49,225 nt of DNA, taken from a virus. Position numbers and translations under genes: made by a program. The first letter of the stretch is position 1. The number at the start of each line of letters is the position of its first letter. Shown in pieces: positions 3,395 to 49,225 of this stretch. The stretch spans positions 1-49,225 of the IMG/VR virus record IMGVR_UViG_3300042465_004642. The stretch is one strand, 5' to 3'. A model generated the notes under the pieces. The model did not search any database. It had not been told where the DNA came from and was given only the letters and a program-made list of their open reading frames with translations.

Positions 3395-3626
3395 TATCAT
3401 ACCATTCATCCATCATATCTCCCATTATTTCTTCAATGATCATATTATCATGCATTTCTTGTGCAATCTCACCATTGAATTTAAACTCTTTAACAGGTTT
3501 AACTACTTGTTTATTAGAGTTTCTAATAATCATTTTAAGAGTATTTCTTAAATGTTTTTCATCCATTAGGTCAACATCTATTTGCTGACCATTTCTCATT
3601 GTCCAATATACTATTTCTTTATTCAT
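3381..3626 (-). CDS. Hypothetical acidic/Met-rich protein
   Basis: I place the start at the ATG at 3626 (MNKEIVYWTMRNGQQIDVDL), 81 residues. The longer open frame to 3680 runs inside the upstream zinc-ribbon gene. The N-terminus looks beta-like (IVYWTMRNGQQIDVDLM), followed by basic helices and a C-terminal Met/Glu/Asp-rich helix (MIIEEIMGDMMDEWYD). It overlaps the upstream gene by 8 bases. It may be a small regulator; no family is recognised. Confidence 0.6.
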   Translation of the reverse strand: MNKEIVYWTMRNGQQIDVDLMDEKHLRNTLKMIIRNSNKQVVKPVKEFKFNGEIAQEMHDNMIIEEIMGDMMDEWYDITEN

Positions 3627-3759
3627 AATCATTAAGATTTGGGTTTTCAAAATCATATTCTTCTTGTGCATAACAATCAAAACATTGTATATATGTTCCT
3701 TTTGTTACATAAGATTCTATAATAATATTACCACATTGACTACATGTTAATTCTTTCAT
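3619..3759 (-). CDS. 46-residue zinc-ribbon microprotein
   Basis: The protein starts MKELTCSQCGNIIIESYVT and has a second pair CFDCY at residues 26-30: CxxC-x16-CxxC, a classic four-Cys zinc ribbon. The C-terminal tail is acidic. The upstream A-rich double-box leader (3760-3797) and an 8-base overlap with the next gene support translation. Zinc ribbons of this size usually bind nucleic acid or a polymerase subunit. The specific partner is unknown. Confidence 0.65.
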   Translation of the reverse strand: MKELTCSQCGNIIIESYVTKGTYIQCFDCYAQEEYDFENPNLNDYE

Positions 3760-3797
3760 CTTTTCAGTTTTAGTTTCAGTTAATAATTTTTCAGTTA
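3760..3797 (-). promoter_or_regulatory. Repeated A-rich translation leader (copy 3)
   Basis: On the minus strand it contains three AACTGAAA-type boxes ending one base before the ATG at 3759. It also overlaps the T-rich stretch that follows the last helix of the large structured RNA candidate. It may therefore serve both as the 3' end of that RNA and as the leader of the next gene. Confidence 0.45.
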
Positions 3798-5020
3798 ATA
3801 AAAATAAACAAGCAGGTGTAGACCCATGGAATATCTACACACTCTGTTCCCCGTTCCCACCCTTGGTAGCTAACTCCAAAAGCACAGATAAGTTAGTACA
3901 ATGTACTCTGCTTGTTTATATCAGGCTAGACATCATAAGTTTATATACTGAACTATTGTTCAGCCTTATGAATTTCTCCTGACAAATCCTCTTCAGGATT
4001 GATTGTCTTGAATCATATAATAATAACACTCCTTATATACTGGTTATTGCTAACCACCTTTGTTTAACGGATTAAGTCCCTTAGCTTTTATTGGTTAAGG
4101 TGCATAGGACTATGTTATTAAAATGTAGTGTATCAATACTGAACTGGGCATCCCCGATTTATGATACTAAAGACTTTGTCAATCTGTTCAGCGTAACCCC
4201 AAAGATCCTCTTTGGTTAATGGTTGTCACCTACATTTAATTTCTCACTTGTCTGTTATGGTGAGCCAACGCCAGCAACTTACTGGATAGGATGTTCTTCA
4301 GTTTTTACGTGTATTCAAGAACCCAAACAGGACATCACGGTAATAATCCCTCTGTACTCAGTTGTAATACATAAGCTGATGTTTTAGTTCTCTAATTAAA
4401 GAGTCTATCACAGACATGTTACATACACCATTTTAAACAGTATTTACCAAATATTCTATTGGGCTTTTTAAGGGAGCCTTTGGAGGTTTCAACTGAGTCT
4501 ATATGTGTATTACAACTGCTCACCCTTGGGAAGTGAGAATGGTACATTACTATTTTAAATTTATTAAGATTCCGGATTCAATAGCTATTATACTCTCCTA
4601 CTAACTAATAGATAAGAATATAGTATTGTAATGTGAGTGAGTAGACTAAGTTCATGATTTAGCCATATATTAATATAGATATAGCCTAATCAGGTAGTTA
4701 CAGATGTGAGTTAAAGCATTAGTTTAGGTGGGTGTTTGACTGTCAACTACTTTATCTCACACATTCTCACACAAATTATATCCACATAACTATTTAACTA
4801 CCAGCATGTTACAACATTACCTACAACATAACTAACATCACCTATAATATAATCAATTTGACTACAAGTACCGGTGTGAGACTGTCAATATGATTAATAT
4901 AAATACAACATTACTGTCAACTTATACTTAATGCATCTGACTAAGTATATATAATAAGACCATGTAGTTAAATGACATTATATCTTTATATCAATAGACC
5001 ACATAATTTACCAACACTAC
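3798..5020 (-). ncRNA. Candidate large, highly structured non-coding RNA
   Basis: There is no plausible gene for about 1.2 kb on either strand, yet the stretch is dense in helices. Perfect long-range helices are 4359-4371 with 4506-4518 (13 bp) and 3804-3815 with 3908-3919 (12 bp). Nested sets include 3921-3925/3978-3982 enclosing 3934-3939/3965-3970 enclosing 3948-3953/3958-3963, and 4705-4710/4756-4761 enclosing 4713-4716/4750-4753 enclosing 4721-4724/4745-4748. Others are 3985-3990/3995-4000, 4199-4205/4209-4215, 4544-4550/4628-4634 and 4041-4046/4051-4056. The last has a GNRA-type GCAA loop only if read on the minus strand. A T-rich tract follows the last helix. Phages carry large ornate RNAs such as GOLLD and ROOL; this may be one or a new class. 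The ends are uncertain and some short helices will be chance. Confidence 0.6.
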
Positions 5021-5073
5021 TATCCCCTACAGTTTAAAGCTGAATAATAAAGCTGGCAAAGCCAAGAAAAAAT
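5021..5073 (-). promoter_or_regulatory. Leader element copy 1, upstream of the large RNA
   Basis: A conserved block shared with 5537-5593: hairpin TGGC-AAA-GCCA, then AGCT, an A/T spacer, AGCTGAA-type box (reverse TTCAGCT), TAAACT and GGGATA. Copy 2 has hairpin TGCC-GCA-GGCA, a compensatory change. On the minus strand it lies just after the terminator at 5138-5172 and just before the large RNA candidate. It may be a promoter, a leader or a protein-binding RNA motif. Confidence 0.5.
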
Positions 5074-5137
5074 ACATAGTGCATCATACACAGTATATCA
5101 AACACAGTAATACATTTAACTACAATGGGAATAAAAA

Positions 5138-5172
5138 TAATAAACCCCTACCTATTAAGGTAAGGGTTTATT
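5138..5172 (-). terminator. Intrinsic terminator after the SSB gene
   Basis: A 12-bp stem with one mismatch (5141-5152 with 5159-5170, loop tattaa) is followed on the minus strand by a T-rich tract. It starts 10 bases past the stop of 5181-5507 and marks the boundary between the SSB unit and the large RNA unit. Confidence 0.85.
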
Positions 5173-5180
5173 CTTCCGTG

Positions 5181-5507
5181 TTAAGAGAATGGGTTTTCCA
5201 TATCATCTTTAACAGCAGGTGCAGGTGCAGTGATACCAAAATCATCATATGATAATGATTCCATTGGTAATCCTAATACACTTGGGATAAGTGTTTTGTT
5301 ATCATCCATTAAGGATAACGCCACATTTACTTCATCTCCCTGAGATACTTTATCCCACACAACTTCATAAATCACTCCTCTAGCAGGTTTCCCTGAAGCA
5401 GTGATTAAAGTTACTTTTTTGTATCTTTTACCATTGGTATTGATACTGATTTCTGCGTCTATACTTTTAATAGTACAAACCGCAATTGGGTCTTTAACAG
5501 TTTCCAT
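5181..5507 (-). CDS. Probable single-stranded DNA-binding protein
   Basis: A 108-residue protein. Residues 1-85 are a compact beta-rich domain (AVCTIKSIDAEISI, KRYKKVTLITASG, RGVIYEVVWDKVSQGDEVNV) consistent with a small OB-fold. The C-terminus is a Pro/Ala linker and an acidic tip, DDMENPFS, very close to the DDDIPF-type tip with which bacterial and phage SSBs recruit replication and repair proteins. It stands alone between a conserved leader element (5537-5593) and a strong terminator, so it is expressed as a single-gene unit. A second OB-like protein lies at 393-863; the two may have separate roles. Confidence 0.65.
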   Translation of the reverse strand: METVKDPIAVCTIKSIDAEISINTNGKRYKKVTLITASGKPARGVIYEVVWDKVSQGDEVNVALSLMDDNKTLIPSVLGLPMESLSYDDFGITAPAPAVKDDMENPFS

Positions 5508-5536
5508 AACTCTAAATTTAATTAATTAAACATTTA

Positions 5537-5593
5537 TATCCCTAATAGTTTAGAGCTGAATAAATAAAAGCTGCCGCAGGCAAGAAAAAAATA
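5537..5593 (-). promoter_or_regulatory. Leader element copy 2, upstream of the SSB gene
   Basis: It matches 5021-5073 through TATCCCT, AGTTTA, AGCTGAATAA and AAGCT, with hairpin TGCC-GCA-GGCA and CAAGAAAAAA at the end. The stem differs at both partner positions from copy 1, keeping pairing. It ends about 30 bases before the SSB start codon. Confidence 0.55.
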
Positions 5594-5608
5594 AGGGTAT
5601 AACCCTTA
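5584..5608 (-). terminator. Intrinsic terminator after 5606-5803
   Basis: A 7-bp perfect hairpin (TAAGGGT at 5592-5598 with ACCCTTA at 5602-5608, loop ATA) runs into a T7 tract on the minus strand. It overlaps the stop codon region of the upstream gene and the start of leader element copy 2. Confidence 0.8.
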
Positions 5609-5803
5609 CTTAGTTCTTATAATCTCAAATAATAAGTGGTCATTACAAGGGCCAACTTTATATTTAACAAGAACACCTTGTGTTATCCAGGTGTTGATCA
5701 TTGCTTGAGCTTGGCTCATAGCAATAACTCTAGCACCTTCAGGTGCAGCAGTAGCAAGTGTTGGATCCACCAACACAAGTACAATTCTAATATCTGTTCT
5801 CAT
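5606..5803 (-). CDS. Small hypothetical protein
   Basis: A 65-residue protein. An N-terminal beta-strand (MRTDIRIVLVLVDPTLA) is followed by a helix (VIAMSQAQAMINTWITQ) and two strands (VLVKYKVGP, LLFEIIRTK), a small mixed alpha/beta fold. No family is recognised. It is a single-gene unit with the third leader-element copy upstream (5832-5884) and a terminator directly after it. Its base composition is slightly less AT-rich than its neighbours. Confidence 0.6.
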   Translation of the reverse strand: MRTDIRIVLVLVDPTLATAAPEGARVIAMSQAQAMINTWITQGVLVKYKVGPCNDHLLFEIIRTK

Positions 5804-5831
5804 AATTTTTAGTATTTTTCATAATGGTTGT

Positions 5832-5884
5832 GAGCTGAATTCCTTTAAACAATGGGGGGTACCAGCTAGGCCTGAAGGGCCGGG
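5832..5884 (-). promoter_or_regulatory. Divergent leader element copy 3, upstream of 5606-5803
   Basis: It shares the AGCTGAA box, then (after a longer G-rich spacer) AGCT followed by a GGCC-TGAAG-GGCC hairpin. The order box, AGCT, hairpin is the same as in copies 1 and 2, but the sequence is more diverged and flanked by two G6 runs. It ends about 30 bases before the start codon at 5803. Confidence 0.35.
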
Positions 5885-5949
5885 GGGTTTGCTATGGAGG
5901 GTCCACTACATCTTACTGCATATACTAAATCTACCTCCGTATTTATTTA

Positions 5950-6141
5950 TTATAGGTAAGGTGTATTCCCGGGGAATTGTTTTATATTTGTATTAGGTGC
6001 CAGACACGCTTCCCGTAAGATCAGCGTCCCAGGTTTGGACTTCTTAGTAAGGGAAAGGACAATGTCTATAACTTTACTACCCCCAGGAAAGTTTCTCTGA
6101 TCAAGAATTACTACCTGGGTTTTTTTATTGTATATTTGCAT
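5950..6141 (-). CDS. Doubtful small open frame in the divergent control region
   Basis: A 63-residue frame (MQIYNKKTQVVILDQRNF at the N-terminus). The peptide is not implausible, but it uses codons rare elsewhere in the window (GGG, CGG, ACG, CCC, CTG). It is crossed by plus-strand promoter-like sites at 5983 and 6131 and a plus-strand T7 terminator. I think a plus-strand RNA is at least as likely as this gene. Confidence 0.25.
   Translation of the reverse strand: MQIYNKKTQVVILDQRNFPGGSKVIDIVLSLTKKSKPGTLILREACLAPNTNIKQFPGNTPYL
5983..5990 (+). promoter_or_regulatory. Promoter-like -7 box TATATTTG
   Basis: It matches the Bacteroidota TAnnTTTG -7 element in the divergent region, 31 bases after a TAGGTAAGG motif that recurs before other promoters here. 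Confidence 0.35.
5995..6126 (+). ncRNA. Candidate small plus-strand RNA in the divergent region
   Basis: A promoter-like TATATTTG (5983-5990) lies upstream. A long-range helix (cccaggt near 6028-6034 with acctggg near 6112-6118) is followed by T7 at the 3' end, giving a transcript of roughly 130 nt. GC content is higher than around it. It overlaps the doubtful minus-strand frame at 5950-6141; one of the two is probably wrong. Confidence 0.25.
6131..6138 (+). promoter_or_regulatory. Promoter-like -7 box TATATTTG
   Basis: TATATTTGC follows directly after the T7 tract at 6119-6125. It is oriented towards the plus-strand gene block, with a terminator-like hairpin 40 bases downstream. Confidence 0.4.
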
Positions 6142-6180
6142 GTATCATAAATTTTTTTAAATTTATTTAGTTAGGTAAGG

Positions 6181-6214
6181 AAATCCCTGGGCACATGTCT
6201 GGGGATTTTGTTTT
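6181..6214 (+). terminator. Terminator hairpin in a terminator-promoter cassette
   Basis: AAATCCC (6181-6187) pairs with GGGATTT (6202-6208), followed by TGTTTTT. The preceding TAGGTAAGG and the stem are repeated almost exactly at 7565-7608. Confidence 0.6.
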
Positions 6215-6220
6215 TATTAT

Positions 6221-6228
6221 TATCTTTG
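6221..6228 (+). promoter_or_regulatory. Promoter-like -7 box TATCTTTG before the first plus-strand gene
   Basis: It fits TAnnTTTG and lies 20 bases before the ATG at 6248, directly after the terminator at 6181-6214. It is probably the main start of the plus-strand block, giving a short leader. Confidence 0.5.
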
Positions 6229-6247
6229 TATCTTAAAATTATTTATT

Positions 6248-6511
6248 ATGCAGTTATATAGAGAAAGGCCTAAGAGTATTGAGGCTATACAGTATGATGG
6301 TACAGAAGAATGTGCTATTAAGATTTCCGGATATGAGAATTTTGAGGGACATATTAATTATATCAATCATAAATTTGATAGCTTTTTTCTCACTACTGAT
6401 AATGGTGAAATTAGATTAGTACCGGGGGACTATGTGATACAGGATTGGGCCGGTACATTTTCACTCATGCCAGAAAAAAAATTTAATAGGATGTATAAGG
6501 TATTTGAATAA
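6248..6511 (+). CDS. Small phage protein of the PGDYVI/GDWII type
   Basis: An 87-residue protein. The N-terminus (MQLYRERPKSIEAIQYDG) and C-terminus (RLVPGDYVIQDWAGTF, then FNRMYKVFE) match a widespread family of small phage proteins: start with YRKKPVVIEA, later 'GD-W/Y-V-I', end 'F-x-x-x-Y'. No function is established for that family that I know of. It is the first gene of the plus-strand block, with a promoter 20 bases upstream and another promoter-like site just after its stop. Confidence 0.75.
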   Translation: MQLYRERPKSIEAIQYDGTEECAIKISGYENFEGHINYINHKFDSFFLTTDNGEIRLVPGDYVIQDWAGTFSLMPEKKFNRMYKVFE

Positions 6512-8344: not shown

Positions 8345-8515
8345 ATGGGATTATTTAATAAACTAGCAGGATGGAGTAAACCAGTTGCTGTAAAACTTAC
8401 TAAAGCTCAAGCAGCTAAAGCAGCTAAAGAAGAAGTAAAAGGAGACAAAAAACGTCAAGCAGAAATTAGAAAAAAAGCTAATGAAATAAAAGCAAATTTA
8501 TTTACTAGAGCATAA
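8345..8515 (+). CDS. Small Lys/Ala-rich helical protein
   Basis: A 56-residue protein (MGLFNKLAGWSKPVAVKLTK at the N-terminus, then an Ala/Lys-rich helix and LFTRA at the end). It lies between the two paralogous virion genes with 17-base and 16-base gaps. It resembles small basic proteins that co-occur with fibre genes; its function is unknown. Confidence 0.6.
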   Translation: MGLFNKLAGWSKPVAVKLTKAQAAKAAKEEVKGDKKRQAEIRKKANEIKANLFTRA

Positions 8516-30828: not shown

Positions 30829-32445
30829 ATGGCAACTCCAGTATTAAATAATGGGATTTTCTTGCGTGATACGGCATACAATGCTAGTTCACATGTAGAT
30901 TCTTACCATTTACAAAACATGCTAAAAGATGCAGAACCAATGGATTTAGGTCCAGTAGACTTATGGGCTATGGCTCAAAAAGTTGAAATGCCTTTATACC
31001 AGTTGTCTTCTTTTGGTGGAAAAAATGTTATCAATGTAGATAACGCACGTGGTGAGTATAAATGGCAAACTCCACTATCAATTGATCTTCCTTACATAGT
31101 TGAAGATATTGAGCCAATGAATTCAGCAAAAGGTATTGAAGGTACTACTTTCAAAATCAAGTTGAACAAACGTGAATTTGGACATGGTGATATCATCACT
31201 TATGACAAATACAATGGTTGTGAGATGTACATTACTGCTGATGACATTTTACCAATTGGTGATGGTTTTATCTATACTGTACAGTTAGTTAACAATGATA
31301 ACTACAAGTACATTGATAATGCTTATTTAGCTAATGGTACTAAAGTATTCCGTAAAGGTTCTGCTAGAGGTGAGTATGGTGAGAGATTCTCAGACATCCA
31401 AACTAACACAGGATTCCGTGAGTACTACAACTTTGTTGGTGGTGCTGAAGCTCACGTTCATTATTCTATCTCTTCTAGAGCAGATTTAATGATCAAAGGT
31501 GGAATGAATGCAGATGGTACAGTTCCTGTAACTGAAATCTGGAGATCTCACTTGAAAGGTTTAGATCCATCTATTTCATCTTTGGATGACATGGTTAAAG
31601 TAATGGGTAAAGACTCAGTTAAAAAAGCATTTGACAATGGTGATTTATCAAGAACTTTCTTGACAAACATGGAAGCTGCTCACTTAACTAAAATTGCTTC
31701 TGATATTGAGACTTACCTTATGTGGGGACACGGGGGTAGAGTACGTCAAGATGGACCTGATGATGTAAGATTATCTGTAGGTTTGTGGAAACAATTAGAC
31801 AACTCTTTCAAAAGAATTTATAACAAAAATAACTTTAACTTGGATTTATTCAGAGGTGAGTTATATAACTTCTTTAATGGTAAAGTTGAATTCCAAGGAC
31901 CAGATCCTAAACGTCAACTTGTTGTTCAAACAGGTATGGGTGGTATGCGTATGGTTAATGAATCAATTAAACAAGAAGCTATTTCTTCAGGTTTATTAAT
32001 TCAAGCTGCTGATATTGGTGCTATTACTGGTAAAGGTATGGACTTAAACTTTGGATTTGCTTACACTTCTTACGTTATACCATTCTTGGCTAATGTGAAA
32101 TTTGTACTTAATCCTGCATTTGATAATGTTCACACTAATGATATTGAGAATCCTATTATTGATGGTTTCCCATTATCTTCTTATTCATTCATTATCTTTG
32201 ATATCACAGATAACACTAATGACAACATTTACATGTTGAAATTATCTTGGGATAATCAATTGAAATGGTGGTACCAAAATGGTACAATGGATTATATGGG
32301 TAGATCTCAAGGATTCCAATCTTCTGGACAATTCAACGGTTACCGTGTAATGATGTCTCAAACAATGCCAGCTATTTGGGTTAAAGATCCAACTAAAGTA
32401 TTGAAAATTGTTATGAGAAATCCAATCACAGGTGGATCATTCTAA
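30829..32445 (+). CDS. Major capsid protein
   Basis: 538 residues, of HK97-fold size for this group, located after portal and scaffold-like genes and followed by a strong terminator. Recognisable segments: VDLWAMAQKVEMPLYQLSSF, GEYKWQTPLSIDLPYIVEDI, FVGGAEAHVHYSISSRADLM, TYLMWGHGGRVRQDGPDDVR, NGYRVMMSQTMPAIWVKDPT. Codon use differs from neighbours, with more CGT, TTC, AAC, ATC and TTG, as expected for the most highly translated late gene. It forms the icosahedral shell. The best-supported structural call in the window along with TerL. Confidence 0.92.
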   Translation: MATPVLNNGIFLRDTAYNASSHVDSYHLQNMLKDAEPMDLGPVDLWAMAQKVEMPLYQLSSFGGKNVINVDNARGEYKWQTPLSIDLPYIVEDIEPMNSAKGIEGTTFKIKLNKREFGHGDIITYDKYNGCEMYITADDILPIGDGFIYTVQLVNNDNYKYIDNAYLANGTKVFRKGSARGEYGERFSDIQTNTGFREYYNFVGGAEAHVHYSISSRADLMIKGGMNADGTVPVTEIWRSHLKGLDPSISSLDDMVKVMGKDSVKKAFDNGDLSRTFLTNMEAAHLTKIASDIETYLMWGHGGRVRQDGPDDVRLSVGLWKQLDNSFKRIYNKNNFNLDLFRGELYNFFNGKVEFQGPDPKRQLVVQTGMGGMRMVNESIKQEAISSGLLIQAADIGAITGKGMDLNFGFAYTSYVIPFLANVKFVLNPAFDNVHTNDIENPIIDGFPLSSYSFIIFDITDNTNDNIYMLKLSWDNQLKWWYQNGTMDYMGRSQGFQSSGQFNGYRVMMSQTMPAIWVKDPTKVLKIVMRNPITGGSF

Positions 32446-47351: not shown

Positions 47352-49225
47352 ATGGCAAAGAAAAATATACAAGATACAGGTCAAAATAAAACAAATACCT
47401 TTATAAAGGGATTAAATAAAGATTCAGATCCTACATTTGTAAGTGAGGGCATGTGGACTCATGCACGTAATGCAGTTAACAATACATTAGAAGGTAATGT
47501 TGGTACATTATCAAATGAAACATCTAATATATTATGTGCTGAGGCTGGTGCAACTTTAACTGGTAAAAAATATATCATAGGTGCAATACATTTATATACT
47601 GATAAATGGATCCTTTTTACTGTAGCACATCCAGCATCAGGAGTTGGTGCAGCTACTGGACATGAAATAGGATTATTTGAAGAAGATACTTGTAGATATA
47701 GAATTATTGTACAGGATACATGTTTAAATTTTGATAAACGCTTTTTAATTACTGGTGCATCAAGAGAGAAAGAAGATTGCTCATGGTCTGTATATTTTGC
47801 TGATGGTAATAATCCTGATAGATATTTAAATGTTGGAGATGATGCATTATGGCCAACTCCTGATTATATATGGATTGGTAGTAATACATATGCAAATGGA
47901 TCAGGTGTAAATATTCAATGGCCAGGAGTTCAATGGGATCAAGAATGTAAAGATGAGAATGGTATAGTAATACCAGCTCCAGGTGGTTATATTCCTGTAG
48001 GATGTATAATATGTAAAGATCTAACTACATTAAATTGTGAAGCATTAAGACTTGCAAGATTAATGGATACACCTACTATTCAAGTTACACAAGGTATTGG
48101 TGGAGGAGTATTAAGAAATGGATCATACTTTGCAACTCTTGCATATACTATTAAAGGTCAAAGAGTTACTGATTATTTTTCACCAAGTAATACTCAACCT
48201 ATTTGGAATGTTGATGATGTACAAGGTTGTATTGATATATTGATTACAGCTGACTCAACACATTTTACTGAATTTGAATTAGTAGTAATACAAGTAATTA
48301 ATCAAGGTGCAGTAGCAAAAAGAATTGGATTATATTCTACAAATACATCTGTGGTACATTTAGATCAAATTAAAGAAGATCTTATTACTGTACCAATTGA
48401 AATGATTCCTTTAAGAACTCCTGTATATGAAACATCAGATCAAATTACTGAGGTTAATACATACTTATTAAGAATTGCACCAAGATCTAAATTTGATTTT
48501 AACTATCAACCTTTAGCTAATCAAATACAATCACAATGGGTATCAGTAGAATATCCATCAGATTATTATGTAAACGGTGGTGGTAATACAAGTTACTTAA
48601 GAGATGAAGTATATACTTTCTTTATTAGATGGGTATATAGTACAGGAGATAAATCTTCTTCTTATCATATTCCTGGACGTGCTCCAGTACAATTTAATGT
48701 ACCTAATGTAGGAAATACATTAGAAACATCTCCACTGTCTGGTAATATAAATTCTTTAAATTCAAATGATAGAGTATTTGAAGTATATAATACAGCAACT
48801 TTAGGTGGTTTACCTCCTGTAACAACATTACCTGATGGTGGTATTATTATTGCAACAGGTAGAATGGGTTACTGGGAATCAACTGAAAAATATCCAGATA
48901 ATAGACATGATATATGGGATGCATCATCTCAATGTTGGTCAGGTACAACTGATCCACAATTTGATTTATGTGCTGAACCAATAAGACATCATAAATTTCC
49001 TGATAATATAACAGCAAATAGTGATGTAACAAATCATTATTCTCAAGGTGGTGCTAATATTAGATTAATGGGTATAAACTTTACTAATATACTTTTACCA
49101 AAAGACAATGACGGTAATGATATACCAGGAATAGTAGGTTATGAAATACTAAGGGGATCTAGAGAAGGTAATAGAAGTATTATTGCTAAAGGTATGGTTA
49201 ATAACATGCGTACCTATAATATCAA
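47352..49225 (+). CDS. Tail stabilisation (muzzle) protein, C-terminus beyond window
   Basis: Open from the ATG at 47352 to the right edge: 624 full codons with no stop, so only the N-terminal part is here. Landmarks: NTFIKGLNKDSDPTFVSEGM, then WTHARNAVNNTLEGNVGTLS, 'IGAIHLYTDKWILFTVAHPA', 'LRLARLMDTPTIQVTQGIGG' and 'GRMGYWESTEKYPDNRHDIW'. These match the very large tail stabilisation protein of crAss-like phages that closes the tail barrel. Usual length in the group is well over 1,000 residues, consistent with a cut. It carries many Cys-containing loops. Highly confident as a family, despite truncation by the window. Confidence 0.85.
   Translation, partial: MAKKNIQDTGQNKTNTFIKGLNKDSDPTFVSEGMWTHARNAVNNTLEGNVGTLSNETSNILCAEAGATLTGKKYIIGAIHLYTDKWILFTVAHPASGVGAATGHEIGLFEEDTCRYRIIVQDTCLNFDKRFLITGASREKEDCSWSVYFADGNNPDRYLNVGDDALWPTPDYIWIGSNTYANGSGVNIQWPGVQWDQECKDENGIVIPAPGGYIPVGCIICKDLTTLNCEALRLARLMDTPTIQVTQGIGGGVLRNGSYFATLAYTIKGQRVTDYFSPSNTQPIWNVDDVQGCIDILITADSTHFTEFELVVIQVINQGAVAKRIGLYSTNTSVVHLDQIKEDLITVPIEMIPLRTPVYETSDQITEVNTYLLRIAPRSKFDFNYQPLANQIQSQWVSVEYPSDYYVNGGGNTSYLRDEVYTFFIRWVYSTGDKSSSYHIPGRAPVQFNVPNVGNTLETSPLSGNINSLNSNDRVFEVYNTATLGGLPPVTTLPDGGIIIATGRMGYWESTEKYPDNRHDIWDASSQCWSGTTDPQFDLCAEPIRHHKFPDNITANSDVTNHYSQGGANIRLMGINFTNILLPKDNDGNDIPGIVGYEILRGSREGNRSIIAKGMVNNMRTYNI

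Follow-up and report, generated by a model that had tools for sequence, protein, structure and literature searches.

The window analysed here, 49,225 nucleotides of viral DNA (IMG/VR record IMGVR_UViG_3300042465_004642), encodes a Crass_capsid major capsid protein at 30829–32445 (E 1.3e-31), which bears out the claim of a preliminary description that the DNA comes from a crAss-like phage; terminase and portal matches are also found in this genome (PHROGs). The long gene-like ORFs between 393 and 5803 are all on the minus strand, and for this reason minus is taken as the RNA strand. Within this stretch lies a region, 3798–5020, that was described as carrying no plausible gene, and under the standard code the longest ORF contained in it, among those of 40 aa or more, indeed has only 54 aa. 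Two alternative codes give longer frames: one of 88 aa that enters the region from 3619 if TAG encodes Q, and one of 99 aa inside it, at 4118–4417, if TGA encodes W. The right end of the window (47352–49223), which looks gene-free at first, consists of a single 624-aa frame running off the window.

Read along the minus strand, the gene at 5181–5507 is followed by a terminator-like hairpin, an inverted repeat with a 15-bp stem and a T tail (5139–5172), and then by a repeat, TTTCTTGSC..CAGCTTT..ATTCAGCTYTAAACT, at 5013–5072. A second copy of this repeat lies at 5529–5590, and both copies come after a terminator-like site and ahead of a gene or transcription unit. The copy at 5013–5072 is perhaps the promoter of the leader and array unit, a role that we can only infer because each copy holds a small hairpin that is also called terminator-like. 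Next comes a leader (4556–5020), recognised by its recurrence, with the core TATATRGCTAA..TCCGGAAT at about 4569–4670. Downstream of it lie a three-way junction termed module A (4348–4550); module C (about 4242–4292), recognised by conservation and composed of TATCCAGTAAGTTGCTGGC and an interchangeable hairpin, here CTCAC/GTGAG; a domain bounded by TGTAG/CTACA (4124–4234), a reading of the sequence only, which may form an H-type pseudoknot (CTGAAC..GTATCA..GTTCAG..TGATAC); and a last domain (3800–3925) closed by a perfect 12-bp helix.

The locus had been proposed to hold one large ornate non-coding RNA of about 1.2 kb. A large structured RNA on the minus strand is retained, but as an array of separable modules rather than a single fixed fold; it looks like a structured RNA of roughly 760 nt, at about 3800–4555, preceded by a separate leader. 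The long-range pairs on which the proposal drew are real, both the 12-bp pair (3804–3815/3908–3919) and the 13-bp pair (4359–4371/4506–4518), the latter being helix P3 of module A and showing compensatory changes in many phages. The GCAA loop of the minus strand is likewise present at about 4042–4055, closed by GGTTA/TAACC. The description of the flanks stands in part: T residues abound at the 3′ end (TTTATTTTTATTAA), where the terminator scan gave no call, and the leader is recurrent but apparently unstructured.

Folding energy does not discriminate the region from other sequence. The minimum free energy of 3798–5020 on the minus strand is −304.1 against −283.5 (s.d. 8.8) for shuffled sequence (z −2.3; 1 of 60 shuffles as low), with a z of −1.4 for the plus strand, yet a coding control, the single one used, gave −2.9 and −3.1. 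For 3798–4555 the values are −2.2 (minus) and −2.8 (plus), for module A alone −0.8 and −2.0, and for the last domain −2.7 and −2.9. Energy against shuffles was consequently rejected as proof of structure, and the leader was rejected as a structured element with a z of about 0 (minus) and +1.6 (plus). As the energy test was undecisive, comparative evidence was sought. A 19-mer from 3800–3925 had as its sole carrier found a 106.7-kb contig, L002, which is identical to the window over the region and is regarded as its twin, and homologues of the segments in 3800–4240 were not found. A 15-mer of the same array occurs in 69 viral stretches including the twin contig; the other 68 (611 kb) are taken as chance matches, contain an exact A, B or C core in no case, and served as control viral loci.

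Module A is by contrast widely shared. It is composed on the minus strand of helix P1 (4541–4545/4353–4357), a P2 hairpin with loop UUCCCAAGG (4519–4537), helix P3 with a hypervariable arm (4506–4518/4359–4371) and a GAGGG motif (4348–4352), and it scores 84.7 bits against our model R1, the window being among the sequences that built R1. The 19-mer CTCACTTCCCAAGGGTGAG (minus strand, 4519–4537) is found in at least 119 IMG/VR viral stretches and in one contig of a prokaryote genome collection, a 4.6-kb MAG contig, against a chance expectation of about 0.3 stretches for a 19-mer, a rough yardstick taken from the 68 stretches of the 15-mer. The common context of A reads, with variation, TAATGCACCA-CTCAC/GTGAG-CAGTTGTAATA..TATTACAACTG-A-GTGCA-GAGGG, and of 107 distinct contexts 95 have its 3′ half, TGAGTRCAGAGGG, within 1 kb; the 12 exceptions include contexts cut off at a contig edge. 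In the window, P1 is TGTAC/GTACA in place of TGCAC/GTGCA.

Covariation provides strong support for the helices of module A. Across 42 aligned modules (alignment A2, drawn from 106 extracted) the three helices have 91.9% paired cells, with 100% in P1 and P2; double-sided changes occur at 17 of the 22 pairs, and none of 500 shuffles reached any of five measures. All five pairs of P2 are compensated, as is one of the five in P1, the other four being invariant. Extraction used a 3′ pattern and a P2 filter of at least four of five pairs, which 139 of 144 sites (copies included) pass. The result holds in loci fetched for another module: a second set, with 73 R1 hits of which 61 are distinct, was taken from B-fetched loci and the MAG contig, and its alignment, fitted to the model, is 94.2% paired, with 97.9% in P2 (5/5 compensated), 19 of 22 pairs changed on both sides and 0/500 shuffles as high. 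Among TTCCCAAGG sites in the fetched loci, 171 of 189 distinct ones have a five-of-five Watson–Crick stem, in 12 stem sequences; since 117 sites bear the stem that fetched many of the loci, the freer count is 54 of 72 with a perfect stem. Of the 97 loci retrieved through B, 56 contain A according to R1 (one at 21 bits only), as do 26 of the 56 additional loci retrieved through C (23/52 and 3/4), and R1 and R2, whose E-values are rough, found no A or B in the 68 control loci at E up to 0.1.

The arms of A are as variable as its core is constant. They fall into 80 clusters among 94 arms, very different in length and sequence, and module A ranges from about 50 to 350 nt; in L123 the arm is merely a short hairpin. 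A nested sub-element, approximately TGTGACCnnnTAGTGTCTTAACnTATCYGTGAT, occurs inside the A arms of L020, L033 and L060, loosely twice in L060. Pairing of UUCCC in the loop with GAGGG was considered and is unsupported, as variants with other loops keep GAGGG.

Module B, which was not found in the window, has the form TACTCTCA-TCCAAGCAGG..arm..CAAGG-GTTGCAA-CCTTG-TGAGAGTA and is present in 118 viral stretches, from which 66 modules were extracted by rules on helix P1 and hairpin P3 that bias the pair count. In 30 of these (alignment A3) 99.7% of cells are paired and three of 13 pairs changed on both sides. With so little variation in B, its support is modest, and 39 of 500 shuffles reached one of the five covariation measures. 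Module C, TATCCAGTAAGYTRCTGGC with interchangeable hairpins, has its core in 85 viral stretches and occurs in 28 distinct contexts, which on comparison by eye carry several different hairpins; the window copy is 96% identical to that of L098 over 51 nt. In 23 of the 26 C-fetched loci holding A, where geometry was checked, C and A share a strand in every case, C is upstream in 21, and C starts 48–78 nt before A in 11. Further elements include D, an A-like junction with loop TTAG (three sites), and E, GGGAGCATGTGACCATGAAA (10 sites, seven directly after A or D). An exact A, B or C core occurs in 276 fetched loci, copies included. A and B are supported by covariation (A strong, B modest), and C and the others by conservation.

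An ordinary AT-rich intergenic spacer with chance helices is scarcely credible in the light of these data. Such a spacer would fit an energy z of only about −2.3, no better than the coding control, but it does not account for covariation and conservation across contigs when the controls are empty. The reading is refuted for A and less strongly for B; it may still apply to the segments in 3800–4240, for which no homologues were found.

The array has a consistent orientation with respect to both leader and genes. Among 28 sources of the leader core TATATRGCTAA..TCCGG, kept from 33 listed after matches longer than 200 nt were dropped, A or B motifs lie within 3 kb downstream in 25 and upstream in one. 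Taking ORFs of at least 80 aa, the closest one upstream shares the strand of A in 82 of 93 cases and the closest one downstream in 87 of 93. Gaps containing A have a median length of 947 nt (n = 79), compared with 176.5 nt over all gaps. Taken at the level of sequence, these comparisons establish a strand-biased, gene-free array of modules with invariant cores and variable arms downstream of a recurrent leader. Covariation and strand bias are what point to a putative RNA.

A strand shared with most flanking genes, together with a leader that precedes the array, would also suit a cis-acting mRNA element for downstream accessory genes, such as a riboswitch, an antiterminator or a stabiliser of the exonuclease-resistant type. 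In 23 of 95 cases an ORF begins 31–50 nt after the end of A, which may leave room for a cis role. However, the 95 ORFs downstream of A form 70 clusters, the largest with six members, so that no gene family is tied to the array and the constant downstream family that marks a gene-specific riboswitch was not seen. The several module types spread over about 1.6 kb in L031 exceed what a switch needs, and the arms are hypervariable. We therefore consider a cis-acting element unlikely as the main explanation.

Comparison between related contigs reveals how the array changes. L003 is about 90% identical to the window across the leader and the beginning of the array, where it has an A with a different arm, and then carries B at the place taken in the window by C and the domains beyond it; the second half of its array differs in sequence from that of the window. 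L004 is about 70% identical in parts of the leader, which is followed immediately by a gene, and no A or B match was found in it, although the capsid protein of its contig is 99% identical to the window's (L361). Recurring arm families have different upstream neighbours in 9 of 11 cases and different downstream neighbours in 10 of 11, and recurring upstream families have different arms in 13 of 15. Modules and hypervariable arms are evidently exchanged between phages, as judged from these junctions. Copies of the window or of L004 (L001, L002, L005 and L115) were excluded from most counts.

Cassette-like exchange of hypervariable inserts between conserved ends recalls the attC sites of integrons, which are folded single-strand cassettes, and the conserved cores could in principle be a DNA-level device that serves recombination and itself causes the shuffling. 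We regard this as distinctly less probable than a cis-acting element. It does not explain a strand bias with the genes and with the leader, the G–U pairs that occur in A, mostly in P3, or three-way junctions with an invariant 9-nt loop.

The array is patchily distributed. Among 26 contigs of at least 80 kb scanned with both models, 25 of which were fetched for holding A or B, 14 have A and B, seven A only, four B only and one, that of L004, neither. In each of the 14 contigs with both, the closest A and B share a strand and are at most 712 nt apart; where A is repeated, successive copies are no more than about 1.2 kb apart if weak matches are disregarded, and a further B lies 2.3–2.7 kb away in two contigs. 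There thus appears usually to be one array locus per contig. Crass_capsid is present in 33 of 43 related contigs (19/28 and 14/15), and two of the 10 without a match exceed 100 kb, including L002, though the overlapping window has the gene. One contig of 135,860 bases (G043, the contig of L121) carries the capsid gene twice, about 122 kb apart, and so probably runs past one genome length. An independent view comes from 23 contigs of at least 40 kb with capsids 90–99% identical, picked by length from 80 loci kept by capsid identity and not by RNA. A is present in five of these and B in six (one weak, E 0.005); A or B, the weak match excluded, is found in 7 of 23, a rough figure because many contigs are fragments and four were already in the set. 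The array is clearly not universal among close kin, as far as these contigs represent them.

Records of cultured phages gave little further. A blastn search with the 48-nt core of A and a 451-nt stretch of L128 containing B and A returned nothing from 50,697 records. The nearest capsid relative among them, Leptolyngbya phage Lbo-JY46 (28.5% identity), has an R1 match of 19.9 bits that was judged to be chance, being inside a CDS, on the other strand and poorly aligned, and single matches under about 25 bits were for this reason not relied on. There was no R1 match in csAssE-Sib or phi17:2, and no R2 match in these two or Lbo-JY46.

Of known RNA classes, GOLLD and ROOL are nearest in kind. In PMC12286853, GOLLD is a large structured phage-borne RNA, part conserved and part variable, that forms a homo-oligomeric nanocage, and ROOL is a large phage RNA of intricate structure; the array resembles both in these general respects. 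Unlike GOLLD, with one fold and a conserved 3′ region, it consists of many self-closed modules in variable order, and unlike ROOL it has no single conserved domain order and shows cassette shuffling. The preliminary description had suggested GOLLD, ROOL or a new class. Neither GOLLD nor ROOL is supported, since no Rfam family matched anywhere in the window at the gathering score, and a permissive scan of 3600–6260 (E up to 10) gave nothing inside 3798–5020; the Rfam models thus speak against membership, and the domains were not seen to keep a fixed order. The suggestion of a possible new class is borne out to this extent. To our knowledge, cassette-like exchange of RNA domains is undescribed for GOLLD or ROOL. 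Searches of open-access PubMed Central turned up no account of such arrays.

Other comparisons are more distant. Type III toxin-antitoxin RNAs (ToxI and its kin) are likewise tandem folded RNA units in mobile genomes, but with near-identical repeats beside a toxin gene, whereas the modules here are dissimilar and A alone spans a wide range of lengths. Flavivirus-type exonuclease-resistant RNAs share a three-way junction with A and can pair a loop with downstream sequence, a pairing that the variants of A do not support, and they belong to a different virus world. GOLLD and ROOL are often near tRNA islands; a tRNA is predicted in 34 of 142 loci with an A core, at a median distance of about 2.4 kb, and tRNA prediction across the window found none. 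A tmRNA was predicted (ARAGORN) at 8424–8818 of L013, whose contig has a crAss-like capsid gene. Among 12 relative loci, Rfam at gathering score matched one Hatchet ribozyme and three tRNAs, and at E up to 0.5 nothing was matched on the arrays of three loci. The Hatchet ribozyme (78.1 bits; L008, 5635–5767) precedes A by about 1 kb, on a contig that also encodes a crAss-like capsid protein, and hints that some arrays may be processed, as a single case among the 12 scanned loci.

An RNA-only scaffold, assembling like GOLLD or ROOL into a multimeric particle through loop–loop contacts such as the palindromic UUGCAA of B, is suggested by the size and phage-borne nature of the array, by its usual restriction to one locus per contig and by its invariant hairpin loops. 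The B loop is GUUGCAA or AUUGCAA in 66 of 66 modules, largely by construction, as the loop pattern was in the extraction rule. Module order and content vary between phages, unlike a fixed assembly, and the window has no B module and no Rfam match. We rate such a scaffold as improbable, about on a par with the cis-acting element.

Invariant cores, variable arms, exchange and patchiness are better accommodated by an accessory trans-acting RNA than by an essential structural RNA or a single-gene switch. Our leading explanation, which we put forward tentatively, is a phage accessory RNA locus encoding a structural RNA that would work in trans, on the host or against it, in takeover or counter-defence. 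The element upstream of the leader would drive transcription of leader and array, and the modules would then fold separately. Their invariant cores could be docking sites for a common partner, namely the UUCCCAAGG loop and GAGGG of A, the UUGCAA loop of B and UCCAGUAAG of C, with the fast-changing arms carrying specificity. The array would then be the RNA equivalent of the surrounding accessory small-gene islands. A more specific proposal, and a more speculative one, is a combinatorial RNA repertoire: a locus whose modules, with fixed docking cores and hypervariable arms, come and go and change their combinations, so that every phage would have a different trans-acting RNA directed at host factors. 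If true, the repertoire would correspond, at the level of RNA, to a variable effector or counter-defence island, of which no description turned up in the literature searches, and cassette exchange of RNA domains would point to an RNA-based layer of phage–host conflict. Two RNA families with covariation support (A and B) plus the conserved C, free of Rfam matches in the loci scanned, are added for crAss-like phages from environmental samples.

Antisense targeting of the phage's own genome is marginal at most and unconvincing. Plus-strand antisense 10-mers number 97 against 73.3 expected from shuffles (2 of 200 as high), 11-mers 35 against 22.2 (4 of 200), 12-mers 11 against 6.2 (20 of 200) and 13-mers 3 against 1.7; antisense matching of the minus strand to its own genome gave nothing.

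Two other intergenic regions near the array have features of their own. A second, smaller gene-free element at 2785–2935 on the minus strand is closed by a helix, CAGATTG..CAATCTG, after which come a CAGG/CCTG hairpin and a T run; both of its ends recur at about 9155–9290 of L004, beside a sequence that by eye resembles a tRNA-Leu. The divergent intergenic region at 5826–6140 folds well on the plus strand, as judged without shuffle comparison, and its GACACGCTT..CAGCGTCCCAGGTTTGGACTT recurs, whole or in part, in L003, L125, L185 and L214.
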